DNA from: Spirochaetaceae bacterium
GTDB taxonomy: Bacteria > Spirochaetota > Spirochaetia > SZUA-6 > Fen-1364
NCBI GenBank assembly: GCA_003141795.1
Contig: PLNO01000261.1
Span: forward strand, 1 to 23,539
DNA: 23,539 bases
Direction: 5' to 3'
Shown here: one piece after another, positions 1,363 to 22,743 of the stretch
How the letters are laid out: every line of letters starts with the position of its first letter
Numbering within the stretch: the first letter of the stretch is position 1
Notes under the pieces: generated by a model
Seen by the model: the letters and a program-made list of their open reading frames with translations, nothing else
Told to the model about the DNA's origin: nothing
The model's database searches: none
Program-made: the position numbers and the translations under genes

Positions 1363-2520
1363 ATGGCGAAAGAGAAAGATTTGGTGGAGAAAGCCGCCCT
1401 CTCCGATGGCGGCCACGTCATCAGCGGGGCGCAGAGCATTTTCGAAGCACCCGGGCCCGACAAGCTCAGGTTCGATCTCAACGAGAACCTGTTCGGCCCC
1501 TCGCCCAAGGTGAACGAGGCGATAAAGACCTTCGTGGATAAGGTCGGCGTGAATTGGTACAACGCATTCATGCGCAAACAGTGCGCGGGGGCCATCGCCA
1601 CGTATGCCGGCGCCAAACCGGAAAATGTGTTCGTGTGCAACGGCTCGGCCGAAATTCTCGTCCTCATTGCGGAGGTGTTCCTGCAACCGGGGGACGAGCT
1701 CCTGACCGAATACCCCACCTACCGGGTCCTGCTCAACTACGCGAAGGTTTATGGCTCAGATATCGTCAAGGTGCAGCAGGCGGAGGATTTCAGCACCGAT
1801 CATTTCACGCGCGAGTTCATCTCGAAGATCAGCCCGAAAACGAAGATCATCTACATCTGCAACCCCACGACGTTCAGCTCCCGCGTCTCCTATGACGGGA
1901 TCGTCGAGATCCTTGAAGCATCCCGCAAGGCTCCCAACCCGATCGTCGTCATCGACGAGGCCTACTGGGACAGCGCGACGCATCCCTTCAGCAACAGGAC
2001 CGTCGCCGGTCTCATCGAGAAGTACGACAACCTGATCGTGACCAGGTCGTGCTCCAAGGGGTTCGCGCTCGCGGGCTTGCGCGTCGGCTACTCTTTGAGC
2101 AGCCGCAAGATCGCGGAAAGCTTCAACAAGGTATTCTCTCCCCTGGGGGTCAGCTCCCTGGGCTACGTGGGGCTCATGGCCGCCATCAGCGACCCTGGGT
2201 ACTATGCGAAGGTCAGGCAGGAGCTGGAAGCCAGCAAGACATATCTGGCCGAAGAGCTTGTGAAGCTGGGCCTGACGGTGTTCCCCTCGTATGCGAACTT
2301 CATGCTCGCACGACTTCCCGAAGGAATCATCAATGATCACGACGGCAAGAAAGGCGTCTGGTCCCTCCTTGTGGCCGAAGGCATCTACATTCGAAACAAG
2401 AGCGTCATGTACCCCGACACCGATCTGTGTCACGACATGCTTCGCATCACGCCGGGAACCCGGGCGCAGAGCGAGCGGCTCATCGGTGTTTTGAAGAGGA
2501 TACTGAAAGAGCTCAGGTAA
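1363..2520 (+). CDS. HisC-like PLP-dependent aminotransferase (fold type I, class I/II)
   Basis: This 385-residue protein has the hallmarks of histidinol-phosphate aminotransferase relatives: DLNENLFGPSP near residues 38-48, NP at 157-158, DEAYW at 198-202, and the PLP lysine K232 in SCSKGFALAGLRVGY. Enzymes of this family move an amino group between a phosphorylated or polar amine and 2-oxoglutarate. No other his gene is nearby, and the gene heads a sugar-catabolic operon, so biosynthesis of histidine is unlikely. I infer that it deaminates, or aminates, an intermediate of the imported compound, possibly the amine freed by the PIG-L deacetylase. The ATG at 1363 has only a modest GGTGGGA upstream, at tight spacing. 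The next gene follows after 8 bases. A CobD-like decarboxylase is a less likely alternative. Confidence 0.85.
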   Translation: MAKEKDLVEKAALSDGGHVISGAQSIFEAPGPDKLRFDLNENLFGPSPKVNEAIKTFVDKVGVNWYNAFMRKQCAGAIATYAGAKPENVFVCNGSAEILVLIAEVFLQPGDELLTEYPTYRVLLNYAKVYGSDIVKVQQAEDFSTDHFTREFISKISPKTKIIYICNPTTFSSRVSYDGIVEILEASRKAPNPIVVIDEAYWDSATHPFSNRTVAGLIEKYDNLIVTRSCSKGFALAGLRVGYSLSSRKIAESFNKVFSPLGVSSLGYVGLMAAISDPGYYAKVRQELEASKTYLAEELVKLGLTVFPSYANFMLARLPEGIINDHDGKKGVWSLLVAEGIYIRNKSVMYPDTDLCHDMLRITPGTRAQSERLIGVLKRILKELR

Positions 2521-2528
2521 GGGGAGCG

Positions 2529-3245
2529 ATGTCGACTCATCAGGCCCTCAGGGAGTCCTTCATTGATTTCGTCAATGCCAACGGCTACGAAATCGGTGAC
2601 CGGCTCCCCACCGAAAACGAGCTTGCGAAAAAGCTGCGGGTGAGCCGCGTCACCCTGCGGGAGGCCATGAGGCAGCTCCGGGAGGACGGCTTCATCTATA
2701 GCCGGAGAGGGAGCGGCACCTACCTCTCGGGGCACGTGAAACAGATAGCCGGCACGCTGGACGTCAACAACGGGCTGTCGAGAACCCTCACGGCAGCCGG
2801 TTTCAAGCCGGGCGTCGCGGAATATGAGACTGAGCTTATACATGCCTCCCCGTATCTGGCTGACAAGCTCAGGGTGAAGAAGGGCTGCGGAATAGTCCTG
2901 TTGAAGCGCGTCAGGACTGCGAACGACAAACCGGTCGTGTTCTCCCTGGATCATCTGAGCCCTCGTGTTGCCACGATATTCCTTTCCATTGACGGAAAGA
3001 TCGGCTCGCTTTTCGAGATGATAGAGCAGAGCGGAATCAAGATCGGCAACAGCTTCGCGGAGCTGAGCCCGGAGAACTGCTCGAAAGAGCTGGCCCTGAA
3101 GCTGTCGTACAAGGCGGGCGGTCCCATCCTCGTGATGAAACAGGTCCTGGTGGATCAGAAGGGGTCGCCCCTCTTCTATGGTGAGGACTATTTCCGACCG
3201 GACTGTTTCGTCTTCTCGATCAACAGAAAGAGAAGCGAGACATGA
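2529..3245 (+). CDS. GntR-family transcriptional regulator with UTRA domain (HutC type)
   Basis: This is a 238-residue regulator. Residues 1-75 form the GntR winged helix-turn-helix, with RLPTENELAKKLRVSRVTLR followed by a conserved wing (SRRGSGTYLSG). Residues from about 95 to the end form the UTRA ligand-binding domain, which usually senses a sugar phosphate or other pathway intermediate. GGGGAG at 2521-2526 fixes the start at ATG 2529. A longer in-frame reading from 2427 would run back into the aminotransferase gene and is not needed. The stop overlaps the start of the sugar kinase (ATGA). As a local regulator inside the operon it probably represses the operon, and perhaps also the divergent E1 genes, until its ligand appears; this is inferred from position. 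Confidence 0.92.
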   Translation: MSTHQALRESFIDFVNANGYEIGDRLPTENELAKKLRVSRVTLREAMRQLREDGFIYSRRGSGTYLSGHVKQIAGTLDVNNGLSRTLTAAGFKPGVAEYETELIHASPYLADKLRVKKGCGIVLLKRVRTANDKPVVFSLDHLSPRVATIFLSIDGKIGSLFEMIEQSGIKIGNSFAELSPENCSKELALKLSYKAGGPILVMKQVLVDQKGSPLFYGEDYFRPDCFVFSINRKRSET

Positions 3246-4741
3246 ACGCCCTGCGCATCCTCGGCCTGGACGTCGGAACGAGCGGCTGCAAGGCCATCGT
3301 TTTCGACGGCAGGTGGAACATCATCGCCCGCTCGTACAAACCCTATGACCTCATCCGCATCGGCGAGACAGGCTACGAGCTGGAAGCGCAGACCGTCTGG
3401 GCACAAGTCCGGGAAGCGATAGCCGAGGCGCATGCCCGTGCCGGCGGGAAAACGGATGCGGTTGCCGTCTCGGCGCTCGGCGACGTGGTCATTCCCCTGG
3501 ATGTCTCCGGAACGCCGGTGAGACCCTGCATCTTGGACTTCGACCCGCGCGGGAAGGACGAAATCCATGATTTCGTCCAGGAGTTCGGTGACGAGCGGCT
3601 CTTCAGTGTCACGGGGATGCCCCCCCTCCACATCAACAGCCTGGCAAAGATCCTGTGGTTCAAGAAGAACGAGCCTCGCACTTTCCGGCAGGTGCGCAGG
3701 TGGGCCACTTTCGAAGACTACATACTGCAGAAACTTGGCGCGGGAACGTCCGCAAGCTATTCCATGGCGGCGCGGACCATGCTCTTCGACATCCATAGCA
3801 AGATCTGGTCACCCGACATCCTCGCGGCAGCCGGCGTGCGTGAGTCCGAGCTTCCGCAACCCGTGGCCTCGGGGAAGGTGATCGCGCGGCTCGAAGGCGG
3901 TGTGGCGGAGGATCTCGGTTTCTCGGCCGGGGCGGCGGCCTGTAGCGGGGGGCACGACATGGTCTGCGCGGCCATAGGCGCGGGGCTCGACGTGGATGAC
4001 CACCGAACCGCCCTGGACATCATGGGGACCATGGAGGCGGTCATCGTCCTGACCAGGAAGCCGAATCTGGAAAAGGCGATGCTGGACAATCTGTACCCCT
4101 GCTACCCGGCCTGGAACGAATACATATCGCTGAGCCTGAGTCTCACTTCCGGAAGCGTCCTTGACTGGTACCGGAATCTCTTCCCGGGTTCGAGCGGGGT
4201 TCGTGAAAGCGACATCTACCGCGAGCTGCTCAAGGATGTCGACAGTGGAAAACCGGGGGATCTGGTGCTCGTTCCCCATTTCTCGGGGGTATGCAACCCC
4301 GTCTTCAATCCGGATGCCAGGGGATTTCTCTACGGCTTGTCCCTGAACACGAGCCCGGGCGATCTCGCGCAGGGTATCCTGGAGGGGCTGTGCTACGACC
4401 TGAACTCCCACGTGCGGGGCTTCCGCGCGGCAGGCATCCCCATAGAAAAGCTGAAAATCGTCGGAGGGGGATCGCAATCGGACGCGTGGCTGCAGCTCAA
4501 GGCGAACATCACCGGCCTGGAGATGACCCGCTCGGACGTCCATGACGCTTCCGCCATGGGGGCCGCAGCGCTCTGCGGAGCGGCCGTCGGCCTCATCGAC
4601 GATCCCTATAAGGCGTCGGGTCTGATGGGGCTGAAAGAGACACGGTTCCTTCCCGAGCCAGGGGCCGCGCACCGCTTCGAGAAGAAGTTTCTGAGATACC
4701 TCTCACTGAGGGACAGCGTAGGCGTTTTCGAGTCGAACTGA
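3242..4741 (+). CDS. FGGY-family carbohydrate kinase (uncharacterised, xylulokinase-like)
   Basis: At 499 residues the length is normal for FGGY kinases. The N-terminal phosphate-binding loop GLDVGTSGCKAIVFD carries D10, and the catalytic base is probably D239 in SGGHDM. The C-terminal ATP-site segment (VGGGSQSDAWLQLKANITG) is complete. These enzymes phosphorylate ketoses, polyols or sugar acids with ATP. The GGHD version of the catalytic motif is common in uncharacterised COG1070 members rather than in true xylulokinases, so the substrate is open. The gene overlaps the regulator by four bases and is followed after 16 bases by the deacetylase, so expression is coupled. Its product probably traps the processed substrate inside the cell before further breakdown. 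Confidence 0.9.
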   Translation: MNALRILGLDVGTSGCKAIVFDGRWNIIARSYKPYDLIRIGETGYELEAQTVWAQVREAIAEAHARAGGKTDAVAVSALGDVVIPLDVSGTPVRPCILDFDPRGKDEIHDFVQEFGDERLFSVTGMPPLHINSLAKILWFKKNEPRTFRQVRRWATFEDYILQKLGAGTSASYSMAARTMLFDIHSKIWSPDILAAAGVRESELPQPVASGKVIARLEGGVAEDLGFSAGAAACSGGHDMVCAAIGAGLDVDDHRTALDIMGTMEAVIVLTRKPNLEKAMLDNLYPCYPAWNEYISLSLSLTSGSVLDWYRNLFPGSSGVRESDIYRELLKDVDSGKPGDLVLVPHFSGVCNPVFNPDARGFLYGLSLNTSPGDLAQGILEGLCYDLNSHVRGFRAAGIPIEKLKIVGGGSQSDAWLQLKANITGLEMTRSDVHDASAMGAAALCGAAVGLIDDPYKASGLMGLKETRFLPEPGAAHRFEKKFLRYLSLRDSVGVFESN

Positions 4742-4757
4742 ACGACAGGAGGAGACC

Positions 4758-5477
4758 ATGAGAGTCCTGGCCATTGGAGCGCATCCGGACGACATCGAGT
4801 TCCAGATCGCCGGCACCCTGGCGAAGTACGCGAAGAGGGGTGACGAGGTGTACATGGCCGTTGCAACCAACGGCAATATCGGGTCCTACCGGATGAGCAA
4901 GAAGGAAATCGCCGAGGTGCGTCACGCCGAAGCGCAGAAGTCCGCCGACGTGATCGGCGCTCATCTCATCTGGATGGGGTTCGACGACGAGTTCCTGTTC
5001 GACAATGAGAAGAGCCGGCTCACGTTCATCGATGCCTTCAGGGTCGCGAAGCCCGACGTCGTCTTTTCCCACGTGCCGTCCGGGGACTACAACCCGGATC
5101 ATAACATGACGGGATACCTCGCCTTCATTGCGCGCATCAATGCAACGATCAAGCTCATCGAAACGGAGCATCCTCCCATGCCGAAAGTGCCGGCCCTGTT
5201 TCACTGGCCCGCCCTCGGACTGGCGAAATACATACCGGAGTACTACATCGACGTGACGGATACCTATGAAACCAAGAAGAAGATGTGGTTCTGCCACGAC
5301 AGCCAGCAGGGGGACTGGTGCAAGGACGCTTTCGGCGTGTCCTACAACGACATGCTGGAATCGGAGCTGAAGATCGCCGCGACCCAGGCGGGTACCCCCG
5401 GCTGCGACTACGCGGAATGCCTGCAGCTGTGCAAGAGCTGGCCGGCGATCGCCGGCGCCTACAAGCTGCTTCCGTAG
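4758..5477 (+). CDS. PIG-L / LmbE-family N-deacetylase
   Basis: This 239-residue protein starts with MRVLAIGAHPDDIEFQIAG, the zinc-site motif of the PIG-L family (H9, D11, D12). A second motif, HVPSGDYNPDH, gives D110 and H115, completing the likely metal site. Relatives remove N-acyl groups from glucosamine-type sugars, for example GlcNAc-inositol (MshB), GlcNAc-PI and bacillithiol precursors. AGGAGG precedes the ATG by a good distance. Sitting between a sugar kinase and an epimerase in a transport operon, it is best explained as a catabolic deacetylase acting on an imported N-acyl amino sugar or aminocyclitol. That function is inference. It is the strongest clue to what the operon consumes. 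It lacks a signal peptide, so it acts in the cytoplasm. Confidence 0.88.
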   Translation: MRVLAIGAHPDDIEFQIAGTLAKYAKRGDEVYMAVATNGNIGSYRMSKKEIAEVRHAEAQKSADVIGAHLIWMGFDDEFLFDNEKSRLTFIDAFRVAKPDVVFSHVPSGDYNPDHNMTGYLAFIARINATIKLIETEHPPMPKVPALFHWPALGLAKYIPEYYIDVTDTYETKKKMWFCHDSQQGDWCKDAFGVSYNDMLESELKIAATQAGTPGCDYAECLQLCKSWPAIAGAYKLLP

Positions 5478-5491
5478 CACGCGGGCTCACC

Positions 5492-6361
5492 ATGAGAATC
5501 GGCATACATCAGCACGTCTTCACGAAGAAGCTGTCCGCGGACAATCTCGACCTCATGAACGTCCTGCGGGGCTACGGGTTCGATTCCATGGACGTCAATG
5601 TGCGCGCTCTGGATCTGCCCACCGCGAGGCTCATCCGGAAAAGGGCGGAGGAGCTCGGCCTCCGCCTCATGGGGGGCGGCTCGCTGCCGGTGGACAAGGA
5701 GCTCCTGTCGAGCGAACCCGAGAAGCGGCGGGAAGCGATCGACTACATGAAGGAGCTGGTAAGGCGGGTGCACGAGCTGGGCTCCACGTTCTACGGCGGC
5801 ATCATCTACGCCCCGTTCAGCAAGCGCACCGGAAAAGCGCCGACCCGGGAAGAGTTCGAGCGCTCGGCCGAGGGGCTGCGCGAGGTCGCCCGCTATGCCC
5901 AGGGCTTCGGGATCCTGATGGGGCTCGAGCCGGCCAACCGGTATGAAACCTACATGATCAACACGATCGCGGACGGACTGCGGCTGGCCGATACGATCGG
6001 TGAAAAGAACGTGGGGATCCTCTTCGATACGTTTCACTGTTCTATTGAAGAAAAGAGCATGTACGAGGCGCTCACCGCGGCGGGAAAAAGGCTGTATCAC
6101 GTCCACGTGTCCGCGAACGATCGCGGCATCCCGGGAACGGGCCAGATCCGCTGGGACGAGGTCTTCCAGGGCATCAAGGACGTCGGGTATGACGGCGCGA
6201 TCTCCATCGAGGGGTTCGTCGACGCGTCGGCCGATGTCGCCGCGGGTGCATGCATCTGGCGGAAGTTCGCATCCAGTCCGGAGGAGATGGCGGTACAGGG
6301 ATTCAGCTTCATCCGTTCAATGCTGGAGAAGTACGGGATGAACGAAAGGGGGGGGCGATGA
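5492..6361 (+). CDS. Sugar-phosphate isomerase/epimerase, D-tagatose 3-epimerase-like TIM barrel
   Basis: This is a 289-residue TIM-barrel protein of the AP-endonuclease-2 superfamily. Metal ligands are visible as E146 (GLEPANRYE), D179 (FDTFH), H205 (HVHVSANDRGIPGTG) and E240 (SIEGF), with H182 and R211 as substrate contacts. From memory, the equivalents in Pseudomonas cichorii D-tagatose 3-epimerase are E152, D185, H211, E246, H188 and R217, a constant shift of six, so the active site is intact. Such enzymes epimerise free ketoses at C3 or isomerise related sugars. The start at ATG 5492 follows the deacetylase by 14 bases; an upstream open reading frame is only read-through of another frame. 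The end overlaps the SDR gene (ATGA). The natural substrate cannot be named. Confidence 0.88.
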   Translation: MRIGIHQHVFTKKLSADNLDLMNVLRGYGFDSMDVNVRALDLPTARLIRKRAEELGLRLMGGGSLPVDKELLSSEPEKRREAIDYMKELVRRVHELGSTFYGGIIYAPFSKRTGKAPTREEFERSAEGLREVARYAQGFGILMGLEPANRYETYMINTIADGLRLADTIGEKNVGILFDTFHCSIEEKSMYEALTAAGKRLYHVHVSANDRGIPGTGQIRWDEVFQGIKDVGYDGAISIEGFVDASADVAAGACIWRKFASSPEEMAVQGFSFIRSMLEKYGMNERGGR

Positions 6362-7197
6362 TCCCTAAGGAGTTCGGCGTCGAAGGAAAGACGGCCATCG
6401 TGACGGGCGCTGGAGGCGGCATCGGCACGGCCATCGCGACGGTTCTCGCGGAGGCGGGCGCGGACGTGGCGGTGCTCGACATTGCCCTTGCCAAGGCCGA
6501 GGAGACCGCTCATGCGATCGAGAAGCTGGGACGCAGGGCCCTTCCCCTCAAGGTGGACGTTTCGAGCGACGAGCAGGTGCATGCCACCGTGGAGAAGGTC
6601 GTCTCCCACTTCGGCACGGTGGACATCCTGTGCAGCAATGCCGGCATCTTCCTCACCAAGCCGGTCGCGGTCGCCCCGGGCGGGGACGGCACGATCGCCA
6701 ACCGGGAGCTCGCCGGGGAGAACGCGGAAACCCCGCTCGAGCTGGCGGATTGGCAGAGGGTGCTCGGCATCAACCTGAACGCCGCCTTCTACTTTGCCCG
6801 TGCGGTCGGCCCCCACATGATGCGGCAGAAGAAAGGAAAGGTCGTATTCACCAGCTCCACGGCCGGCGACGAGGGCCAGAGCACCCTGGCCGCCTACTGC
6901 GTGAGCAAGGGAGGGCTGAACTCGCTGACCCGCGTTCTCTGCTCGGAGTGGGGCCCTTACAACATCACGGTGAACGCGATCGCCCCGGGCATGGTGCGCA
7001 CCGACATGATCAAACAGTTCGAGGCCGATCCGTCGGTCATCAATCATTCCATCAGCCTCGTTCCGCTCGGGAGGCTCGGCACTCCGCGCGAGGTGGCGCT
7101 CCTCGTCCTCTTCCTTTCATCCGATGCCTCGAGCTATCTCTCGGGGCAGGTATTCACTATCGACGGCGGGGCCAGGGGCAGAGGGACCGGCATATGA
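6358..7197 (+). CDS. Short-chain dehydrogenase/reductase (SDR) with an insertion
   Basis: This is a 279-residue classical SDR. It has the dinucleotide motif TGAGGGIG (residues 17-24), D41 at the end of the second strand suggesting NAD(H) preference, NAGI at 94-97, a serine at 166/167 and the catalytic pair Y180 and K184 (YCVSK). The C-terminal GQVFTIDGG is typical. Compared with common family members there are about 20 extra residues, roughly 101-128, Gly/Ala/Glu-rich, between the NAG strand and the helix starting DWQRVL, near the substrate side. The gene is coupled by ATGA overlaps to both neighbours. It probably oxidises a hydroxyl of the sugar or polyol intermediate. Confidence 0.92.
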   Translation: MIPKEFGVEGKTAIVTGAGGGIGTAIATVLAEAGADVAVLDIALAKAEETAHAIEKLGRRALPLKVDVSSDEQVHATVEKVVSHFGTVDILCSNAGIFLTKPVAVAPGGDGTIANRELAGENAETPLELADWQRVLGINLNAAFYFARAVGPHMMRQKKGKVVFTSSTAGDEGQSTLAAYCVSKGGLNSLTRVLCSEWGPYNITVNAIAPGMVRTDMIKQFEADPSVINHSISLVPLGRLGTPREVALLVLFLSSDASSYLSGQVFTIDGGARGRGTGI

Positions 7198-7694
7198 GGA
7201 GCATGAAGCTGCTCCCCCTGACGGACCCGAGCTTCAGGATGGTAGGAGCCTGCCACGACATGTTTCACCCCGAGGGGGAGAAGCTTGGCGACAATCCCGT
7301 CGAGTTCTTCAGGGATATGCTCCCGTTGAAGCTGGGCAAGGACACGACGGCCTCTTTTTCCCTGTGCCGTGCCCAAGCTCGGGAACCTTTCGTCGATGCC
7401 GTCGAATACCACACTTTCACCGAGGAGGCGATTGTCCCCCTCGACGCTGACATCGCCATGGCATTCGCACCCGCCACTGCCACCGGCACTGTGCCGCGCG
7501 AAAAGATGAACGCGTACCGTATCCCCCGCGGGACCATGATCGTGCTGAAGACGGGTGCATGGCACAGCGGTCCCTACGTCATCGGGAAGGGGCCCGCGCA
7601 TATTCTCGTTGCATTGCCCGAGCGGACCTACGCGAACGATTGCATCGTGAAGGTGCTGAGCGACGCCGAGAGGCTCTCGATCACGGGACTATGA
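7194..7694 (+). CDS. Cupin-fold / ureidoglycolate-lyase-like protein of unknown role
   Basis: This is a 166-residue protein with no signal peptide or membrane segment. The pattern VEYHTFTEEAIVPLDAD, a later proline-rich turn, then GTMIVLKTGAWHSGPYVI, resembles the RmlC-like cupin core of ureidoglycolate lyase (AllA) relatives, where the first histidine/glutamate group and the late histidine line the barrel. No purine-degradation gene is nearby, so the AllA reaction is unlikely. Such cupins in sugar operons may act as isomerases or lyases. It overlaps the SDR stop (ATGA); an alternative ATG lies at 7203. The family match is from motif memory only, and the function is unknown. Confidence 0.7.
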   Translation: MRSMKLLPLTDPSFRMVGACHDMFHPEGEKLGDNPVEFFRDMLPLKLGKDTTASFSLCRAQAREPFVDAVEYHTFTEEAIVPLDADIAMAFAPATATGTVPREKMNAYRIPRGTMIVLKTGAWHSGPYVIGKGPAHILVALPERTYANDCIVKVLSDAERLSITGL

Positions 7695-7720
7695 CCCATG
7701 CCGAAGGCAAGGAGACCCTG

Positions 7721-8710
7721 GTGAAATACAGAAAGCTCGGGAATACGGATCTGAACATGAGCCCCATCATCATGGGCGCGTGGCAATACGGGTGCGAGCG
7801 GTACTGGGGGGATGTTCCGACGAAAGATGCGTGCGACGTGATCGCGAAGGCCGTCGACAAGGGCATCAACACGATCGACACGGCCATCGGCTACGACGGT
7901 TCCGAGGACATAGTCGGTAAAGCGATAAAGAACATCCGGGACAAGGTGATCGTCATCTCCAAGGGCGGCGCCGACCCGAGAAAGATGGAGAGGAACGTCG
8001 ACATCAGCCTTTCACGGATGGGCCTGGATGTCATCGACCTCTATCTCGTTCATTACGCCGACACCGCCATCCCTATAGCGGAAACAATCGGGGGTATGGT
8101 GCGGCTGAAGCAAAAGGGAAAGATCAAGCACGTGGGCGTCTCGAACTTCTCCCGCGAGCAGGTCCTGCAGGCCCTTGATGTCGCCGACATCGCCTGCTGC
8201 GAGCAGGCCTACAATCTCCTGTGGCGGGAGATCGAGGACACGGGCACCCTGAAGGTCTGTACCGATCACAATGTCGGCATCCTTGCCTATTCATCCCTTG
8301 GCCAGGGGCTTTTCACCGGAAAAATCAGATCCGAGGCGGACATCCCGAAGAGGGAGGGAGACATCCGTCACCTCACCCTTCTCTTCCAGGGAGAAGCGTT
8401 CAAAGCGGGGCTTGCCATGGTGAAACATCTGGATGCTCTGGCCGCAAAGTACAAGAGGACGCCGGCGCAGGTCGCCATCAACTGGGTCGTCAATCAGAAG
8501 GGCATCACCTCCGCCATCGTGGGGAGCAAGACGGTGAAGCAGCTGGACGACAATCTCGGCGCCCTCGGATGGGAAATGGATAAAAAGGACTACGAGCTCC
8601 TGAGCACCGAGGGGAACAGGACGTCAAGGCTTTTCGATTACAGCTACAGCATGTTCGGAATGAAATACGACGGCATCAAGGTCGACGAGATGATCGATTC
8701 GTCCCTGTAG
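7721..8710 (+). CDS. Aldo-keto reductase
   Basis: This 329-residue protein is a (beta/alpha)8 aldo-keto reductase. The catalytic tetrad is visible: D53 and Y58 (TIDTAIGYDGSE), K81 (VISKGG) and H111 (YLVHYAD). The C-terminal NADPH-binding region includes AIVGSKTVKQLDDN. I choose GTG 7721 because AAGGAG lies six bases upstream and the protein then begins VKYRKLGNTDLNMS, the normal family start. An in-frame ATG at 7691 that overlaps the previous stop would add ten unconserved residues. It probably reduces an aldehyde or ketone, or oxidises a hydroxyl, of the pathway compound. A 37-base gap leads to the transporter genes. Confidence 0.9.
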   Translation: MKYRKLGNTDLNMSPIIMGAWQYGCERYWGDVPTKDACDVIAKAVDKGINTIDTAIGYDGSEDIVGKAIKNIRDKVIVISKGGADPRKMERNVDISLSRMGLDVIDLYLVHYADTAIPIAETIGGMVRLKQKGKIKHVGVSNFSREQVLQALDVADIACCEQAYNLLWREIEDTGTLKVCTDHNVGILAYSSLGQGLFTGKIRSEADIPKREGDIRHLTLLFQGEAFKAGLAMVKHLDALAAKYKRTPAQVAINWVVNQKGITSAIVGSKTVKQLDDNLGALGWEMDKKDYELLSTEGNRTSRLFDYSYSMFGMKYDGIKVDEMIDSSL

Positions 8711-8747
8711 CGGACGGTTTTCGGCGCGCTATCACGGGAGGTGGGGA

Positions 8748-10283
8748 TTGGCGGAACATGTGCTCGAGCTGGAGAAAATCGGCAAGACATTCGCGGGCGT
8801 GACGGTTCTGCGCAACATCAATCTCACACTGCGGAAGGGAGAAGTTCACGCCCTTCTCGGGGAAAACGGCGCGGGGAAGTCGACCCTGATCAAGATCCTG
8901 AGCGGCTATTACATGCCGGACCGTGGCGGGACCATCCGGGTGAACGGCACGCCCGTCGTCTTCTCCAATCCTAAAGACGCCATGGATGCCTCGATACACA
9001 CCATCTATCAGGAGCTCACCCTCTGCCCCCTGATGAGCGTCGCGGAAAACATCGTTCTCGACAAGCAGCACTCCTTCCCCGGCTTTCTTCAGAAGACACG
9101 CGGCTTCCACGACATGTCGGTGAAGGCCCTGGAGAAGCTCGGACAAAACGACATCAAACCGAACGCGATGGTAAAGGACCTGTCCATTGCCCAGCGGCAG
9201 GTCGTCGAGATCGCGAAGGCAATCACCGCGAATGCGCAGATCGTCCTCATGGACGAGCCTACATCCTCCATTTCGCAGTCCGATGCCGACAAGCTCATGA
9301 ACATCATCCGGGGCTTAAGGGATGACGGAGTCACGATCATCTACATCTCCCATCGCCTGCATGAGATCGACGGCATCGCCGACAGGATCACGGTCCTGAG
9401 GGACGGGGACCTCGTCGGCACCGTCAACAAGACGGACGTCACGGAACGGGACCTGATCAGCATGATGGTCGGCAGGGAGCTGACCAACATGTACCCGAAA
9501 ACGGAGGTTCCAATCGGGGAACCAGCTCTCCGCGTGGAGAACCTCGCGAGCGAGGGCGCCTTCCGGGGCGTATCGTTCGAGGTGCGCAGGGGGGAGATAT
9601 TCGGCATCGGGGGGCTTGTCGGCGCGAAACGAACCGAGGTCCTGGAGACGATCTTCGGCCTCCGCCCGATCACGGCCGGGAGGATACTCCTGAAAGGGAA
9701 GGCGTTCACGCCGAAGAATCCCCTGCACGCGATACGAAACGGGATCGCCTTCGTGACCGAGGACAGGAAGAAGTCCGGCCTGGTTCTCTGTCTGCCCGTC
9801 TTCGAGAACATCAACCTAGTCAATGCACGAAAGAAGGCTCGCTTCGGCTGGCTCGACTGGCGGCAGCTGATGCGGATCGCGGAAAACCAGAAGAAGGCCC
9901 TGAATATCCGGTTGAACAGGATCGAGCAGACGGTGGGGACCCTTTCCGGGGGAAACCAGCAGAAGGTCGCGCTTGCGAAATGGCTCGAGTTCGCCCCGGA
10001 CGTTCTGCTCTTCGACGAGCCGACGCGGGGAATCGACATCGGCGCAAAGACGGAGATCTATTCCATCATGGGAGCCCTTGCCGCGAAAGGCACGGCAATC
10101 ATCATGGTGTCCTCCGAGCTTCCCGAGCTCTTGAGCGTCGCGGACAGGATCATGGTCCTGCGCGAGGGGGAAATGCAGGGCATCGTCGGACGACAGGAGG
10201 CGACGCAGGAGATGATCATGTCGCTTGCAGCCCTGAAACACGTTGAGACAACCAACGGCACGCAGGAGAGGACCCAGGTATGA
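8748..10283 (+). CDS. Sugar ABC transporter ATP-binding protein, RbsA type (two ATPase domains)
   Basis: This is a 511-residue tandem ATPase of the ribose/xylose/galactose importer class. The first half has Walker A G38-T46 (GENGAGKST), the signature region LSIAQ at 145-149 and Walker B D169-E170. The second half has the degenerate Walker A GIGGLVGAKRT (286-296) normal for RbsA, the signature LSGGNQ (399-404) and Walker B D423-E424. It energises uptake through the permease encoded next. The start is TTG 8748, preceded by GGAGGTG at 8737-8743; no ATG suits the frame. Its end overlaps the permease start by four bases (ATGA). Confidence 0.95.
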   Translation: MAEHVLELEKIGKTFAGVTVLRNINLTLRKGEVHALLGENGAGKSTLIKILSGYYMPDRGGTIRVNGTPVVFSNPKDAMDASIHTIYQELTLCPLMSVAENIVLDKQHSFPGFLQKTRGFHDMSVKALEKLGQNDIKPNAMVKDLSIAQRQVVEIAKAITANAQIVLMDEPTSSISQSDADKLMNIIRGLRDDGVTIIYISHRLHEIDGIADRITVLRDGDLVGTVNKTDVTERDLISMMVGRELTNMYPKTEVPIGEPALRVENLASEGAFRGVSFEVRRGEIFGIGGLVGAKRTEVLETIFGLRPITAGRILLKGKAFTPKNPLHAIRNGIAFVTEDRKKSGLVLCLPVFENINLVNARKKARFGWLDWRQLMRIAENQKKALNIRLNRIEQTVGTLSGGNQQKVALAKWLEFAPDVLLFDEPTRGIDIGAKTEIYSIMGALAAKGTAIIMVSSELPELLSVADRIMVLREGEMQGIVGRQEATQEMIMSLAALKHVETTNGTQERTQV

Positions 10284-11251
10284 GCACGATTGCACCCCCC
10301 ATCAGAAGGCGAATGACGGTCGCCGACGTCCTCATCAGGTATCGGACCGTCGTCATTCTCCTGATTCTCGTCGCGACGTTCACGATTCTCCAGCACGTGT
10401 TCATTCTCCCTGCGAATCTCCTGAACATGCTGAAGCGGATGAGCTTCGTCGCGATCACCGCCTTCGGCATGACCTTCGTCATCACCCTGGGCGGGCTCGA
10501 CCTGTCCGTCGGAGGGACGGCGGCGATCGTGGGCGTCGCACTCGCCTTGATGCTCGGCGCCGGGATTCCCCTCGTCGTCGCCCTGCTGCTGTGCCTGCTC
10601 ATCGCCGCGGCCCTGGGAGCCATCAACGGAGTCATCATCGTCAAGGGAAGGATCGAGCCGTTCCTCGTCACCCTCGCGACGATGAACATCTTCCGTGGCA
10701 TTGCCCTCGTGGCCACGGGGGGGAGGCCCGTTCCCATCGTGAGCGAAGGATTCATCGAGTTCTTCGGCAACGGCTTCCTCTTCCGGGTCATCCCCATCCC
10801 CGTTCTCATCACGGCGGTCTTTTTCGCGATATCCCTGTTCCTGTACAAAAAGACCAAGTTCGGCTTCTACGCCCGTGCGATCGGCGGCAACCCCGAGGCG
10901 GCGAGGGTGGCGGGAATCGGCATCCAGTCGGTCAAGTTCCTGACCTACGTCATCAACGGGGTGTTCGCATTCTTCGCGGGGCTCATTCTTTCGGCCCTCA
11001 TGGGCAGCGGCATTCCGAGCATCGCCTCGGATCTTCCCCTGGATGCGATCTCCGCGGTCATTCTCGGAGGGACGGCCATCGCGGGAGGGTTCGGCAATGT
11101 CCTCGGGACCCTGGGGGGAGCGCTGATCATGTCGACGCTCAACAGCGGCATGTCCCTCCTGGGCGCGCAGTACCCGGTGCAGATTTTCGTGAAGGGCGTC
11201 GTGATCATATTCGCGGTACTCCTGGACAACGTGGTCAGGCCGAGGAACTAA
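10280..11251 (+). CDS. Sugar ABC transporter permease, RbsC type
   Basis: This is a 323-residue integral membrane protein with roughly nine to ten hydrophobic segments, the first at about residues 28-45. Family markers are MTFVITLGGLDLSVG, the EPFLVTLATMNIFRG motif and GGTAIAGGFGNVLGTLGGAL near the C-terminus. It would form a homodimeric channel with the RbsA-type ATPase. The ATG overlaps the ATPase stop. The binding-protein gene follows after 133 bases, an order (ATPase, permease, binding protein) less usual than binding protein first. Confidence 0.95.
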   Translation: MSTIAPPIRRRMTVADVLIRYRTVVILLILVATFTILQHVFILPANLLNMLKRMSFVAITAFGMTFVITLGGLDLSVGGTAAIVGVALALMLGAGIPLVVALLLCLLIAAALGAINGVIIVKGRIEPFLVTLATMNIFRGIALVATGGRPVPIVSEGFIEFFGNGFLFRVIPIPVLITAVFFAISLFLYKKTKFGFYARAIGGNPEAARVAGIGIQSVKFLTYVINGVFAFFAGLILSALMGSGIPSIASDLPLDAISAVILGGTAIAGGFGNVLGTLGGALIMSTLNSGMSLLGAQYPVQIFVKGVVIIFAVLLDNVVRPRN

Positions 11252-11384
11252 ACGATCATAGTCTCGTGAGCGGAAAGCCAGTTGAAAAGGAGGGATGTGC
11301 AGTAAGGAGTTCGGGTTCAGCTGCGACGTGCTCGCAGGCTCATTGAAGTCTTCATAGTCGAAACGAAAAAGGAGAGGAAGCGCG

Positions 11385-12560
11385 ATGAAAAGAATGATTC
11401 TTGGGCTCGTTGTTCTCTGCATGATCCTTGTCCCCACGCTCGTGATGGCCGGGGGGACCAAAGAGGGAACCGGGGATACCACCGCGGCGGTGGCAAGCTC
11501 GAAAGTCCACTCGAACGCCGATGAGTTCACCTATGTCCAGAAGGCGGGCACCAAGGTCGACCTCACCAGCTACTACGCCCAGTACAAGGTCGACAGCAAG
11601 AGCGTCATTTCGGCGATGGGCGGGGTTGTGACGGTAAAAGGGCTGCCGAAGAAGCTGCCGACGCCGAACAAGAAGTACAAGATCGGCCTCGCACTCTACT
11701 TCACCGTGGACGAGGTCGGCGCGTTCGTCCTCGACGGGACGAAGAAGGCCGCGGAGAAGATGGGGATCGAGCTGTTGGTGAACGACGCCAACTATGACCA
11801 GAACATCCAGGACCAGGCCATCGAGCAGTGGATACTGCAGAAGGTCGACGGCGTCATCTTCTACCCCGCGAACTTCAACGCCTGCGAAGGAATCCTCAAG
11901 AAGCTGAAGGCCGCGAACATCCCCGTCATGGCGGGAAATCCTCCCCTGGTCGGCGAGGTCAACAGCGTCATGACCATCGACAACGTTGAAATCGGCAGGC
12001 AGTCGGCGCAGTTCATCGTGAACGCCCTGAAGGCCAAAGGCAAGGTTGAAGGCACGGTCGTTTTCCAGACCCTTCCGTTCCTCCATCCGAACGCTGAAAC
12101 CCGCGAGGCCGGCTTCCGGGAAGTCCTCGGCAAGTACCCCGACATCAAGATCATCAAGCTGACCGGTATCACGCCTGAGGAGCACTACGCCGCCTTCGAA
12201 GGGGCCATGCAGGCGAACCCGAACATGGTGGCGGCATGGGGTCTGTACAGCTCGGCGGTCATCGGCATGGCCAACGCGCGCAAGGCCGCGGGCAAGACCA
12301 ACATCGTCCTGGTCGGCGTGGACAACGACCGCCCCATCCTGGCGGGCATCGCCAAGGGGGAGATCACCGGGAGCGTGGGCTACAACGCGTACAACCACGC
12401 GGAGTGGACCCTGTCCAACCTGGTCAACCTGCTGAACGGTGTGGAAGTGCCCGGGCAGATCATCGGACCCATCGAGGTGATCAACAAGGACAATGTTTCC
12501 AGCCTGTTCAAGATGTACTACGGCGGGAAGACTCTCGAAGATTACATGGCGGGCAAGTAG
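11385..12560 (+). CDS. Periplasmic sugar-binding protein of the ABC transporter (Peripla_BP_4/RbsB-like)
   Basis: This is a 391-residue exported binding protein. Residues 1-22 are a signal peptide (MKRMILGL... LVMA) with a likely signal peptidase I cut before GGTKEG; no lipobox cysteine is present. The bilobal fold begins near residue 97 (KYKIGLALYFTVDEVGAFVLDGTKKAA is its first strand and helix region) and includes DGVIFYPAN and LVGVDNDRPIL. About 70 residues between signal and fold are extra compared with RbsB and contain Tyr/Lys-rich sequence. GGAGAGG at 11371-11377 supports the ATG. A strong hairpin follows the stop, so this gene may be expressed above its neighbours. Ligand class: pentose, hexose, polyol or a derivative; not determinable here. 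Confidence 0.93.
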   Translation: MKRMILGLVVLCMILVPTLVMAGGTKEGTGDTTAAVASSKVHSNADEFTYVQKAGTKVDLTSYYAQYKVDSKSVISAMGGVVTVKGLPKKLPTPNKKYKIGLALYFTVDEVGAFVLDGTKKAAEKMGIELLVNDANYDQNIQDQAIEQWILQKVDGVIFYPANFNACEGILKKLKAANIPVMAGNPPLVGEVNSVMTIDNVEIGRQSAQFIVNALKAKGKVEGTVVFQTLPFLHPNAETREAGFREVLGKYPDIKIIKLTGITPEEHYAAFEGAMQANPNMVAAWGLYSSAVIGMANARKAAGKTNIVLVGVDNDRPILAGIAKGEITGSVGYNAYNHAEWTLSNLVNLLNGVEVPGQIIGPIEVINKDNVSSLFKMYYGGKTLEDYMAGK

Positions 12561-12574
12561 GGCCCTTGCATTCT

Positions 12575-12614
12575 CCGCGTGCGGATGGGCCGGGAGACGG
12601 TCGTCCGCACGCGG
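12575..12614 (+). terminator. Strong hairpin after the binding-protein gene (terminator or mRNA stabiliser)
   Basis: A perfect 11-bp inverted repeat, CCGCGTGCGGA (12575-12585) and TCCGCACGCGG (12604-12614), encloses an 18-base loop and begins 14 bases after the stop codon. It is followed by GCTTTC, which is not a true T-run. It may act as a partial terminator separating the VOC gene, or as a 3'-end stabiliser that raises binding-protein mRNA. Confidence 0.6.
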
Positions 12615-12643
12615 GCTTTCGAAGATCGGCGGTACGGCAAGAC

Positions 12644-13165
12644 ATGAGACAGCAGAAGGACATCCAGCTCCCCTTCCTCTCCCACGGCGTCACGCAGGTC
12701 GCCTGGGTCGTGGAGGATCTGGAGCGGGCAGTGGAGACGCAGTATCGCCTTTTCGGCATCGGCCCATGGCACTTCTACCTCTACGATCATGAGCTCCTCT
12801 CGATGATGCGCATACGCGGCAAGGATGCGGGGTTCGCAATGGATACCGCGGTGGCGAACGCGGGGCCGACGAGACTTGAAATCATTCAACCCCTTTCGGG
12901 CGACACGACATACCACGAGTTCGTGAGGAAAAACGGATACGGCAGGATCCACCACTTCGGGCTTGCCGTGGACAACATGGCGGAATCCCTGGAGCTCGCC
13001 CGGCAGGCAGGCATCGACGTCATAATGGAGGGCAGCGGCTACGGCCTCGACGGGGACGGACACTTCGCCTACCTGGACACCGAAGAAATCTATGGCATCA
13101 CCCTGGAGCTGATGGAAAGACCCGCCAGACGCCGCACGCCGAGGAAGATCTTTCCCGCGCCGTAG
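12644..13165 (+). CDS. VOC-superfamily (glyoxalase/methylmalonyl-CoA epimerase-like) protein
   Basis: This is a 173-residue protein with two beta-alpha-beta-beta-beta units. The first starts SHGVTQVAWVVEDLERAVE with GIGPWHFYLY following; the second starts RIHHFGLAVDNMAES. The candidate metal ligands include H14, a glutamate in RLEIIQP, H105/H106 in the second unit and a terminal glutamate in ITLELME. VOC enzymes do epimerisation, dioxygenation or isomerisation of oxo compounds at a metal centre. It ends the plus-strand run, after the hairpin, with a weak ribosome site, so it may be expressed less than the transporter. Its role in the pathway is unknown; removing or epimerising a reactive dicarbonyl intermediate is one possibility. 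Confidence 0.82.
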   Translation: MRQQKDIQLPFLSHGVTQVAWVVEDLERAVETQYRLFGIGPWHFYLYDHELLSMMRIRGKDAGFAMDTAVANAGPTRLEIIQPLSGDTTYHEFVRKNGYGRIHHFGLAVDNMAESLELARQAGIDVIMEGSGYGLDGDGHFAYLDTEEIYGITLELMERPARRRTPRKIFPAP

Positions 13166-13184: not shown

Positions 13185-14390
13185 TCAGCGAAGAGGGGCG
13201 CTCCGCCGCGCGAGCCTCCCCAGGCCGAGCTGCGCAAGTGCAGCCAGTGTTCCCACGGCACAACATCCGATCCAGAGGGTCGAGCCGCCCAGATTCTGAT
13301 ATACGAGCCCACCGAGCCAGGGACCGAGGAACAGCGAGAGCCCCCATGCCGAGCCGTACACGCCCTGGAAGAGTCCGCGCAGGGCGACGGGTGCGCGGTC
13401 CGCTATGATCGCAGGTGCTACCGAGGTTCCGAGCAGCTCTCCGATCGTCCAGATGAAAACACTCACCATATACAACGGAAGCGTCGATGCCAGGGCGGTG
13501 AAGCCGAACCCCAGCCCGCAGGAAAGCGCGGAGACGGCCATGGTGCGGAAGCGCGGCCATCGCGCCGCCATGGCGGAGAGCGGGATCGTGGTGAGGATGA
13601 TCAGCAGGCCGTTGACGGAAATCGCCAGGCCGAAATCGCGCGGGAGAAGGCCGTTTGCGGCCATCGCGAGGGGAAGTGTGACCGCGTGCTGGGAGTAGAC
13701 GATTCCGGTGGCGAGTGTGAGAAGGCTGAACAGGAGGAGGACCGGAGCAGCGGTGAGCTGTGAAACCCGTTCCCCTATTCGGGCGTGGGCGGCGTGATGC
13801 GCAGCCTCTGCCGGCCGCGTCTCCTTGAACCCGAACAGGACGATGAGGCCGAAGGCGAGCGTCGTCAGTCCGTCGGCGACGAACAGGGCGAGGTAGGAGG
13901 CGCCCGCGATCAGGCCGGCCAGAACGGGTGCGATGGCCGCACCGAGGTTGATCGCCCAGTAGATGTAGCCGTAACCGCGCGTGCGCGCCTCGGGCGCCAC
14001 GAGGTCAGCCACTGCCGCGCTGACCGCGGGGCGGTACAGGTCGGTGAAGAACCCGACGATGAACGTGCAGATGGCGATCGGCAGGAGCCCGTGGGCAAGC
14101 CCGAGTGCCACCATTGCGAAAGGGGCGATGAGGAAGCTCATGAGCATCACCGGCCGTCGTCCCAGGCGGTCCGCCATGACGCCGCCGCTCATCTGCGCGA
14201 GGAAAGAGCCCGCCCCGAACAGGGACACCATGAACGCGGCCCGGCCTGCGGGAATGGCGCGCTGCGTCGTGAGGTACAAGGTGAGGAAGGGGATGACGAG
14301 CCCGCCCAGCCGATTGACCAGAGTCCCGATCCACAGCAGCCAGTATGCGGGAGGGAGGCCAGCGGTGAGTCCGGCGAACCGGGAAGGCAT
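13185..14390 (-). CDS. Major facilitator superfamily transporter (DHA1-like)
   Basis: This 401-residue protein has about twelve hydrophobic segments. The MFS motif A between TM2 and TM3 is clear (GGVMADRLGRRPVM, residues 69-82), and motif-C-like glycine-rich helices follow. Such proteins export drugs or metabolites using the proton gradient. I start it at ATG 14390; GTG 14396 is two codons upstream in the same frame, and much longer readings cross into the opposite promoter region. It is convergent with the VOC gene (19-base gap) and divergent from the FAD oxidoreductase. No regulator is adjacent, and substrate cannot be predicted. Confidence 0.9.
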   Translation of the reverse strand: MPSRFAGLTAGLPPAYWLLWIGTLVNRLGGLVIPFLTLYLTTQRAIPAGRAAFMVSLFGAGSFLAQMSGGVMADRLGRRPVMLMSFLIAPFAMVALGLAHGLLPIAICTFIVGFFTDLYRPAVSAAVADLVAPEARTRGYGYIYWAINLGAAIAPVLAGLIAGASYLALFVADGLTTLAFGLIVLFGFKETRPAEAAHHAAHARIGERVSQLTAAPVLLLFSLLTLATGIVYSQHAVTLPLAMAANGLLPRDFGLAISVNGLLIILTTIPLSAMAARWPRFRTMAVSALSCGLGFGFTALASTLPLYMVSVFIWTIGELLGTSVAPAIIADRAPVALRGLFQGVYGSAWGLSLFLGPWLGGLVYQNLGGSTLWIGCCAVGTLAALAQLGLGRLARRSAPLR

Positions 14391-14402
14391 TTTCACCGGC
14401 CG

Positions 14403-14411
14403 AGCATACCA
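14403..14411 (-). promoter_or_regulatory. Possible extended -10 promoter for the MFS gene
   Basis: On the minus strand TGG precedes TATGCT (14403-14408), matching the extended -10 form. No clear -35 box is present. Transcription would begin close to the GTG at 14396, so the message would be almost leaderless. Weak evidence. Confidence 0.25.
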
Positions 14412-14496
14412 GAAAAGCCGGCGGGCGTTCACCCCGCAGCTGCGGGCGCGCGCGGCGCCCCGACCGGCGATGCGACTATCCGATCCGCGCAACCTT

Positions 14497-14523
14497 TGGC
14501 ATAATTGATGGAGTATGCTCCAT
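14497..14523 (+). promoter_or_regulatory. Extended -10 promoter with overlapping inverted repeat
   Basis: TGG followed by CATAAT (14500-14505, five of six matches) gives an extended -10 element for the FAD oxidoreductase. No good -35 box is visible. Directly downstream, ATGGAG (14508-14513) and CTCCAT (14518-14523) form a 6-bp inverted repeat with a TATG spacer, positioned as an operator would be at the start of transcription. Confidence 0.45.
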
Positions 14524-14622
14524 GAAAAAAAGGATCTTTCAGCGAGGGCCTGCATTGCTATCACGCTGTTCGCATGCGCCGTATTCGTTCTGAGCGGACG
14601 ACATATATACCATGCAGACTGA
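14515..14622 (+). CDS. Possible 35-codon leader peptide with one membrane segment
   Basis: ATG at 14515 opens a 35-codon frame. Its charged start (MLHEKKDLSARA) is followed by a hydrophobic stretch of about 17 residues (CIAITLFACAVFVLSG), and its stop overlaps the first codons of the FAD oxidoreductase by 11 bases. It would be nearly leaderless from the extended -10 promoter. The hydrophobic segment and the overlap suggest translational coupling, but there is no ribosome site at a proper distance. A competing 23-codon frame starts at 14522 with GGAG eight bases upstream. Either or both could be chance. Confidence 0.2.
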   Translation: MLHEKKDLSARACIAITLFACAVFVLSGRHIYHAD

Positions 14623-15769: not shown

Positions 15770-15972
15770 GCGCCTAGTTGCCGGAATCCCCCGCGAGTTG
15801 ACCGACAGCGTCATCGAAATCCGACGATGTGCTGGGTGCGACGGCCCTCGTCACGTCCGTCCCGCCGAGCGCGGAGCTCATGCTGCTCAACTTCCAACCA
15901 GCGCGCCGGGGCGCGAAACCCGGATTGCCGCCGTCCCGCCGATCCCGTTATCCTTGTCGCAAGAGGTACATC

Positions 15973-17031: not shown

Positions 17032-17113
17032 CGGAAGGGGCGTCCGCGGAGCACGCGCCGTTTCCCCCGGCTCCACCGGTGTGAGTATGTTTGTCCAGCA
17101 CAAGGAGGAATGA

Positions 17114-22625: not shown

Positions 22626-22651
22626 GGTTAGACTCTCCTCTCTCTCTCGTT

Positions 22652-22680
22652 TTGAGAGTGAGCGCTCACTCGTTAATTAT
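22652..22680 (+). promoter_or_regulatory. Possible promoter of the TetR gene
   Basis: TTGAGA (22652-22657) and AATTAT (22675-22680) are 17 bases apart. The palindromic operator overlaps the -35 box by two bases and fills most of the spacer, which would give autorepression. The match to consensus is modest. Confidence 0.35.
22656..22671. promoter_or_regulatory. TetR-type operator, perfect 16-bp palindrome
   Basis: GAGTGAGCGCTCACTC is a perfect palindrome between the TetR gene and the divergent operon. It resembles known TetR/FadR-type operators with TGA(A/G)TGA..TCA(C/T)TCA half sites. It lies just downstream of the minus-strand promoter start and within the plus-strand promoter, so a bound dimer would block both. 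Confidence 0.8.
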
Positions 22681-22685
22681 TCCTC

Positions 22686-22713
22686 ACTTTATCACAGGTT
22701 TTACGAATTGCAA
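22686..22713 (-). promoter_or_regulatory. Promoter of the aminotransferase-aldolase-kinase operon
   Basis: On the minus strand TTGCAA (22708-22713) precedes TAAAGT (22686-22691) with a 16-base spacer; each matches consensus at four of six positions. Transcription would start near 22679, so the operator at 22656-22671 falls in the early transcribed region, where repressors act as roadblocks. The leader to ATG 22625 is about 55 bases. Confidence 0.45.
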
Positions 22714-22743
22714 GTACTATCTGAGAGGGAGTACACTCATGCG

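Follow-up and report, generated by a model that had tools for sequence, protein, structure and literature searches.

The locus and its gene content

This report concerns twelve genes in a DNA stretch of 23,539 nucleotides, hereafter the window, from a Spirochaetaceae bacterium (assembly GCA_003141795.1, contig PLNO01000261.1, forward strand). The genes, delimited by open reading frame (ORF) listing and family scans, run co-directionally on the + strand from position 1363 to 13165 and join a CUT2-type sugar importer to a PIG-L family deacetylase, a HisC-like aminotransferase and a ketose 3-epimerase-like protein. At about even chances, this combination is read here as an operon that is induced by its substrate and breaks down an N-acylated amino-deoxy sugar or amino-alditol. 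The start codons of overlapping ORFs were picked among candidate starts, and the genes are the following:

1363-2520, +: HisC-like aminotransferase of a separate clade (PF00155; TIGR01141, 226.2 bits)
2529-3245, +: GntR/UTRA regulator of the HutC type (PF00392 and PF07702)
3242-4741, +: FGGY sugar kinase, xylulokinase-like (PF00370, PF02782; TIGR01312, 254.1 bits)
4758-5477, +: PIG-L family deacetylase (PF02585; best NCBIfam model BshB1, 97.7 bits)
5492-6361, +: ketose (psicose/tagatose) 3-epimerase-like TIM barrel (PF01261)
6358-7197, +: short-chain dehydrogenase, SDR (PF13561; NF005559)
7194-7694, +: AllA/DUF4867-like metal cupin (PF16161, 22.5 bits; PF04115, 21.8 bits; both below gathering)
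7721-8710, +: aldo-keto reductase (AKR), GSP69/IolS-like (PF00248; start set by the ortholog at locus L092)
8748-10283, +: RbsA-type ABC ATPase (family scan)
10280-11251, +: RbsC-type permease (family scan)
11385-12560, +: CUT2 sugar-binding protein (PF13407)
12644-13165, +: VOC/glyoxalase-fold protein (PF13669)

Eight of the 11 junctions overlap or are at most 26 bases wide, four being 4-base overlaps and four being gaps of 8, 16, 14 and 26 bases; the remaining three gaps measure 37, 133 and 83 bases. On the left, a gene resembling the E1-alpha subunit of pyruvate or acetoin dehydrogenase (142-1161, -) is divergent from the aminotransferase gene, and on the right a major facilitator superfamily (MFS) gene (13185-14666, -) is convergent. 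Since the flanking genes are opposed on both sides, the twelve genes look like a single unit with exact ends at 1363 and 13165. No tRNA gene and no Rfam match was found in the window.

A separate clade of HisC-fold aminotransferases

The aminotransferase scores 226.2 bits against the HisC equivalog TIGR01141, below the cut-off of 276.55, with HisC still its best family. Among the best 120 of 3775 matches, 83 (P0121-P0203, the window's own protein included) form a group with 57-100% identity over whole or part length, below which identity falls to at most 36% in the matches listed. The exception, P0206 (longest contig 82,334 bases), is a piece of a clade aminotransferase read into a GntR gene with a broken frame, and documents the adjacency of both genes in another assembly. 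In a tree of 21 of the 83 clade proteins, 18 of the 37 further matches and E. coli HisC, the 21 are monophyletic (support 100/100), with a stem length of 2.16 changes per column; long branches occur among some of the outside proteins as well. All 21 carry a P[TS][TS]F loop, with Thr or Ser at 169 and 170 and Phe at 171, where the proteins outside the clade keep the PNxP loop (N169 and P171 in 18 of 18, N170 in 14 of 18). In the larger sets, [NS]P[TS][TS]F is found in 81 of the 83 clade proteins, the exceptions being P0191 and the frame-broken P0203, and PNxP in 31 of the 37 further ones, where the clade piece P0206 is one of the six misses. Two more motifs separate both groups: YPTYR (77 of 83 versus 0 of 37) and SDGGH (70 of 83 versus 0 of 37).

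The lysine that binds pyridoxal 5'-phosphate (PLP), K232, and the substrate arginines R344 and R361 are kept in all 21 proteins. Like HisC (TIGR01141), the clade has the same fold, the same PLP lysine and both substrate arginines; it differs in the loop, in an insertion of its own around N324-D325, in the invariant residues R121, C356 and D358 (21 proteins) and in its sugar operon context. The structural model (mean predicted local distance difference test score, pLDDT, 83.9; residues 1-28 below 50) is nearest in fold to HisC, histidinol-phosphate complexes included, with the threonine-phosphate decarboxylases (CobD) further down. Judged from its sequence, the enzyme is no ordinary HisC, since it belongs to a separate clade without the PNxP loop, and we think that the label histidinol-phosphate aminotransferase, given by JGI to many proteins of the clade, is mistaken.

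It has been proposed from docking of Mycobacterium tuberculosis HisC that the phosphate is held by two arginines and one asparagine, and the same paper describes the arginine pair of the related ArAT as also holding a dicarboxylate (PMC4703992). Because the ArAT pair has this second use, the two conserved arginines were not taken as a sign that the substrate of the clade is phosphorylated. Outside cellular genomes, no match to the aminotransferase was obtained in viral contigs, and on plasmids the matches were of a distant HisC type, the best listed reaching 32% (5 of 580 records listed).

Deacetylase and sugar enzymes

The PIG-L protein passes the gathering threshold of PF02585 (91.8 bits against 28.2) and contains the motifs HPDD (residue 9) and PDH, the former present in 117 of 120 listed homologs. 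It stays below the cut-offs of BshB1 (TIGR04001, 97.7 against 182.5 bits) and BshB2. Its best sequence matches in the PDB include diacetylchitobiose deacetylases and BshB1, which places it near enzymes that remove acetyl groups from GlcNAc derivatives, and also the 4-oxalmesaconate hydratase 5cgz, a member of the same family PF02585. The resemblance to the BshB/Dac de-N-acetylases thus lies in the shared HPDD and PDH motifs and in the place of these enzymes among the best sequence matches; the differences are the scores below cut-off and the fact that no further bacillithiol gene is named in the window scans. In the class of an Angelakisella genome no close PIG-L was found at E 1e-55 (0 of 391 genomes, a set without a positive control, so that this negative carries little weight). 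Among plasmids the matches were distant (best 38%, 73 records); of two regions opened, one had no table features, and the haloarchaeal plasmid region lists no aminotransferase within 8 kb.

Comparison of the TIM barrel with the PDB points to D-tagatose/D-psicose 3-epimerases (best E 5.7e-43). It scores 191.0 bits against the D-psicose 3-epimerase model NF051856 (cut-off 300) and only 42.6 bits against IolE, and the four metal-site residues Glu/Asp/His/Glu are all present inside the alignment with 7dz2. The kinase stays below the xylulokinase cut-off (TIGR01312, 254.1 against 380.25 bits). The SDR reaches the threshold of a glucose 1-dehydrogenase subfamily, NF005559 (217.6 against 215 bits), which is a subfamily model and no equivalog and was scored on an ORF with 36 extra N-terminal residues; relatives of the protein were found in the PDB by comparison, and the VLDI segment after strand 2 suggests a preference for NAD. 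The best PDB matches of the AKR are 1pz1 and 1pyf, and the VOC protein is nearest to 3gm5, followed by others that include methylmalonyl-CoA epimerases. Lys232 of the aminotransferase, Glu/Asp/His/Glu of the barrel, Asp/Tyr/Lys/His of the AKR and Ser/Tyr/Lys of the SDR are all intact, and these residues, like HPDD and PDH of the deacetylase, are presumably the catalytic ones.

The cupin belongs to a small family of 39 proteins, the window's own included. It falls short of the gathering scores of PF16161 (DUF4867; 22.5 against 28.7 bits), a domain carried by several homologs, and of PF04115 (AllA ureidoglycolate lyase; 21.8 against 23 bits). E71, H73, E78 and H124 are invariant in 33 aligned sequences and fit a cupin metal site. 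The model (pLDDT 95.4) has a fold like that of ureidoglycolate lyase (2bdr, template-modelling score, TM, 0.81) and less like SqvB, the DUF4867 protein with a solved structure (TM 0.43-0.47). A survey of DUF4867 reports FGGY kinases near the largest clusters and proposes ketose mutarotase or ring-opening roles, the activity itself being undetected (PMC11968277); by analogy, this literature gives the best hint for a role of the cupin here. The SftX/SqvB cupins of sulfoglycolysis, described in that survey (PMC11968277), share the site of two Glu and two His and the FGGY neighbours. The differences are the spacing E-x-H-x4-E as opposed to E97, H99 and E103 in SqvB, the fold nearer to AllA and the two missed Pfam gathering scores.

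Regarding the binding protein, its alignment with 2ioy places Asp opposite Asn and Arg opposite a gap, at the Asp-Arg pair that we take to bind the ligand in ribose-binding proteins. The absence of this pair makes a ribose-like ligand doubtful. The protein is also far from the rhizopine-binding model NF052284 (20.7 bits against a cut-off of 420).

Recurrence of the gene set in relatives

A genome scan for the aminotransferase returned 65 loci, of which three hold orthologs; at the other 62, even the best segment does not exceed 36% identity. The orthologs lie in the metagenome-assembled genomes (MAGs) of Spirochaetaceae isolate fen_1365 (G003, locus L003), of Spirochaetes isolate HyVt-370 (G001, locus L001) and of a Bathyarchaeota archaeon (G002, 1.4 Mb). 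HyVt is read by us as hydrothermal vent, and the record name of the other spirochaete bears "fen".

In the fen_1365 MAG the aminotransferase (90% over 202 residues) stands at a contig end, divergent from an E1-alpha gene (74%). Another contig (C147) holds, in the order of the window, the FGGY kinase (85-86%), PIG-L (99.6%), the TIM barrel (92%), the SDR (93%), the cupin (70%), the AKR (83%) and residues 1-306 of RbsA (86%), and it also carries the 3' part of the GntR gene. Of the VOC region, the terminal 78 bases were recovered, at the end of a contig. At the DNA level, the PIG-L region (window 4700-5500) is 93-94.5% identical to fen_1365, against 77-92% for most of the rest (one SDR stretch reaches 94.5%), which possibly reflects a recent exchange. 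The divergent E1-alpha-like gene is common to the window and to fen_1365 (L003:1953-5197), where it is followed by E1-beta- and E2-like genes.

In the HyVt-370 MAG the aminotransferase (68%) adjoins PIG-L (74%) on contig C424, with the SDR (65%) divergent; contig C474 carries the AKR (69%), RbsA (72%), RbsC (73%) and the binding protein (78% over the whole protein, 82% over residues 32-391) in window order; and contig C188 has GntR (66%) beside the FGGY kinase (58%). Among the orthologs in this genome, the binding protein is the most strongly conserved, which suggests that both importers take the same ligand. Two further PIG-L-like places in HyVt-370, one on C382 (42%) and a piece on C250 (residues 168-239, 67%) that three internal stops mark as a remnant, were opened and set aside, nothing there being tied to the pathway.

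The ends of the operon and the protein families, as given by an earlier sequence-only reading of this DNA, were confirmed, and the gene order recurs in fen_1365 and, as two blocks, in HyVt-370, which speaks against a chance assembly. Nor are the deacetylase and the aminotransferase separated from the transporter in all relatives: one fen_1365 contig runs from FGGY through PIG-L, TIM barrel, SDR, cupin and AKR to RbsA, and in HyVt-370 the adjacent aminotransferase and PIG-L genes are matched by an ordered AKR-RbsA-RbsC-binding protein block on another contig. The aminotransferase itself was found to share a contig with a CUT2 transporter in the window only, the fen_1365 contig ending inside its gene.

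Across a sample of 392 Spirochaetota genomes, the aminotransferase was found at E 1e-80 in at least two and PIG-L at E 1e-45 in two, the same two (G001 and G003), and the binding protein at E 1e-60 in at least one, HyVt-370. In the phylum of the Bathyarchaeota MAG, one of 250 genomes carries the aminotransferase, namely the one already known. There, the gene (64%) stands at a contig end and is followed by a putative energy-coupling factor (ECF) transporter, an FGGY kinase (28%), a VOC protein (32%), an SDR (31%) and a class II aldolase; the first protein of the transporter has no Pfam match, so that ECF is a reading. As the kinase, VOC protein and SDR are too distant to count as the same genes, we read this locus as a parallel assembly around the same aminotransferase and not as the same operon.

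The longest-contig values common to the match lists were rejected as proof of linkage and kept as hints. The aminotransferase and PIG-L lists share 1034, 1338 and 3971 (0.88 expected by jittering, 0.17 for values of at least 3000), the aminotransferase and cupin lists share 11673 and 289484 (0.30 expected), the second value probably stemming from the window's own contig, and those of PIG-L and the cupin share none (0.52 expected).

Promoter and candidate operator

Upstream of the aminotransferase gene, a DNA alignment of the window, L003 and L001 has in all three a TTGACA box, a 17-base spacer and a TAYTYT -10 box; in the window this sigma-70-like promoter reads TTGACA-17-TACTCT (1284-1312, +). 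Two copies of the pattern are present in the window, where 0.01 would be expected; the second lies by the divergent E1-alpha gene. A general scan for promoters stayed close to the level of shuffled sequence (4 found, 2.7 expected), as was the terminator scan, and only the promoter aligned in three genomes was used. Just before it, at 1245-1259, lies the palindrome ATTAGTCTTACCAAT, an exact match to ATTAGTNNNACYAAT, with the halves ATTAGT and ACCAAT around CTT, which is perfect and at the same place in L003. With up to two mismatches the motif occurs three times in the window against 0.40 expected, and all its counts are post hoc, the motif having been defined after the alignment was viewed. 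The palindrome is a candidate operator for the GntR regulator.

Proposed pathway and alternative explanations

From the genes with their intact motifs, their conserved order and co-occurrence, the separate aminotransferase clade and the conserved promoter, we infer a succession of steps, each of which is conditional, as are their order, the substrate and the regulator site. The CUT2 ABC importer would bring the compound into the cell, where PIG-L would strip the N-acyl group. The aminotransferase would then transfer the exposed amino group to 2-oxoglutarate or pyruvate and so create a ketone, which would be a 2-ketose if the amine sits at C2 of an alditol, as it does in histidinol phosphate. 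Redox changes at C1 or at a different hydroxyl could fall to the SDR and the AKR, and ring opening or anomerisation may be the task of the cupin. The 3-epimerase would set C3, and the FGGY kinase would phosphorylate the ketose and thereby trap it for central metabolism. GntR would repress from the 1245-1259 palindrome until an intermediate is present. Given the chemistry of HisC, which acts on an amine next to a CH2-O group, a 2-amino-alditol is the simplest substrate of the aminotransferase and a 2-ketose its simplest product; tagatose-type 3-epimerases and xylulokinase-type kinases act on 2-ketoses. The presence of enzymes of these two types would favour a ketose intermediate over a cyclitol. 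As a whole, the evidence suggests a real and rare nutrient pathway.

A number of results weigh against this proposal. Among the matches listed, no protein of the operon reaches an NCBIfam equivalog cut-off, the sole cut-off passed being that of the broad SDR subfamily. Since PF02585 includes a hydratase, the presence of PIG-L does not prove deacylation. The third phosphate holder of HisC, an asparagine at the position as mapped here, is Thr or Ser in the clade, so that a phosphorylated substrate is not assured. In fen_1365 the binding protein has no match at E 1e-20. HyVt-370 holds 9 of the 12 orthologs (58-82% identity), split across three contigs; its best matches to the TIM barrel and to the VOC protein reach 35-36%, and the cupin has none, which would put ketose epimerisation and the cupin step outside the conserved core, unless the MAG misses these genes. 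The 1.4-Mb Bathyarchaeota MAG has no PIG-L match, so that there the aminotransferase works without this deacetylase or the assembly misses it. Finally, the 392-genome sample takes in both carriers already known from the aminotransferase scan.

The import of a compound with an acylated amine, proposed by the sequence-only reading from the deacetylase next to a transaminase, is plausible, and the linkage of these genes was largely upheld; the PIG-L family does include a hydratase, and an enzyme of HisC fold can be a decarboxylase. The operon might instead serve a plain sugar or polyol with no acylated amine, PIG-L acting as an O-deacetylase or, like 5cgz, as a hydratase, and the aminotransferase supplying nitrogen or handling a side product. 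Transporter, epimerase, kinase, SDR and AKR would by themselves make a normal polyol pathway; the joint presence of the aminotransferase and PIG-L in the same two Spirochaetota genomes, adjacent in HyVt-370, which lacks a close epimerase, and the missing ribose-type Asp-Arg pair of the binding protein make this explanation unlikely, albeit worth keeping in view. A smaller probability still is assigned to the aminotransferase being a misplaced biosynthetic HisC or a CobD-like decarboxylase outside the pathway. In favour of it, the best-scoring family is HisC and the fold matches include CobD structures; against it, the score lies below the cut-off, the Thr/Ser-Thr/Ser-Phe loop is present in 21 of 21 tree proteins and in 81 of 83 clade proteins, and the gene adjoins PIG-L in HyVt-370.

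Two other explanations keep the amine but change its carrier. Catabolism of an aminocyclitol such as an N-acyl-inosamine, in which deacylation and transamination to an inosose would follow a rhizopine-like logic, appears improbable. An amine on a polyol, a CUT2 binding protein and an IolS-like AKR would fit it, and in work on a rhizopine biosensor MocB is paired with an inositol ABC transporter (PMC10107442). Against this stand the 20.7 bits of the binding protein where 420 are needed, a regulator of the GntR/UTRA type in place of MocR (NF052281, 30.6 against 650 bits), a TIM barrel related to ketose 3-epimerases with 42.6 bits for IolE, and operon scans in which no Gfo_Idh_MocA gene is named. 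In the second explanation, the pathway would handle polyol-linked amines that bear N-methyl groups. Quaternary amines are demethylated by MttB-type enzymes, and in the HyVt-370 lineage such an enzyme might act on a quaternary member of the substrate family, with PIG-L reserved for the acylated form. Contig C188 of HyVt-370 (L111:642-8577) has a co-directional block of an MttB-family methyltransferase (PF06253, 293 bits) at its head, a CUT1-type binding protein, GntR (66%), the FGGY kinase (58%) and an MtgC-like corrinoid protein, with divergent permease genes named by eye, and a palindrome resembling the operator, with one mismatch, lies between the MttB and permease genes. However, the expected count of this palindrome is 0.13 and 20 of 200 shuffled sequences had one; the MttB (412.4 against 525 bits) and corrinoid (214.8 against 370 bits) proteins stay below their NCBIfam cut-offs; and the window operon has no MttB or corrinoid gene, the block being known from one genome. 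The core RGTTATACWAA, derived from the C188 palindrome and the aminotransferase promoter of the same genome, has matches at 5 of 113 loci, of which three are one and the same place and another is an unrelated Calothrix locus. This explanation is given little credence; should these genes form a single regulon, the amine might arrive in acylated or in methylated form.

A broader idea would make the aminotransferase clade a new enzyme type, a HisC-fold transaminase that converts a 2-amino-2-deoxy-alditol, free or phosphorylated, into a ketose and anchors a module of spirochaetes and Bathyarchaeota with varying importers and nitrogen-unmasking enzymes (PIG-L for N-acyl and, in HyVt-370, a corrinoid MttB-type system for N-methyl groups) under one GntR operator. 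In this wide form it is speculative and quite unlikely. Should the main proposal, the breakdown of an N-acylated amino compound, be right, the amine would be removed by transamination after deacylation, as opposed to the NagB-type deamination of a phosphate, with the nitrogen saved as an amino acid. The unassigned clade of 83 listed aminotransferases would then gain a name and a corrected label, and the operon would offer a handle on a rare dissolved amino compound.

Relation to described systems

No published description of this gene combination was found in the open-access literature, the scope of the search being set short of subscription papers, and to that extent the view of the route as undescribed holds. 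The claimed absence of NagA and NagB stands for the window, neither being named among the matches listed for 20 window proteins or for the aldolase of the side unit described below; it does not extend to the whole genome. By analogy, the closest route in logic that was found would be the oxidative chitin route (GlcNAc1A; OngB, OngC and KdgK), in which, according to PMC12017989, an amino sugar derivative with an acyl group loses both its acetyl group and its amine before any phosphorylation takes place. OngB is described there as a D-aminoacylase-like barrel, whereas PIG-L (PF02585) is the sole deacetylase named in the operon; the window also has a 3-epimerase, an FGGY kinase and a CUT2 importer, with no KdgK-like gene named among the matches listed. 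The rhizopine moc system, in the available part of PMC10107442, likewise imports an amino polyol through an ABC binding protein and uses it as a carbon and nitrogen source. It differs in that the window operon has no MocR and a binding protein below cut-off, and in that no deacetylase appears on the moc side of that part of the paper.

Neighbouring genes of the window

Beyond the MFS gene, a GlpA-like FAD dehydrogenase (385 residues against a profile of 530 positions), a NamA-like flavin reductase, a second AKR and a DUF1349 protein stand in a row at 14612-18809 (+). They are followed on the other strand by a unit (18798-22625, -) that encodes a class III, HemL-like aminotransferase, a class II aldolase resembling L-fuculose-phosphate aldolase (below cut-off) and a second FGGY kinase, and that may act on the amino compound of the twelve-gene operon or on a relative of it. 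A TetR-type gene (22609-23403) is divergent from this unit.

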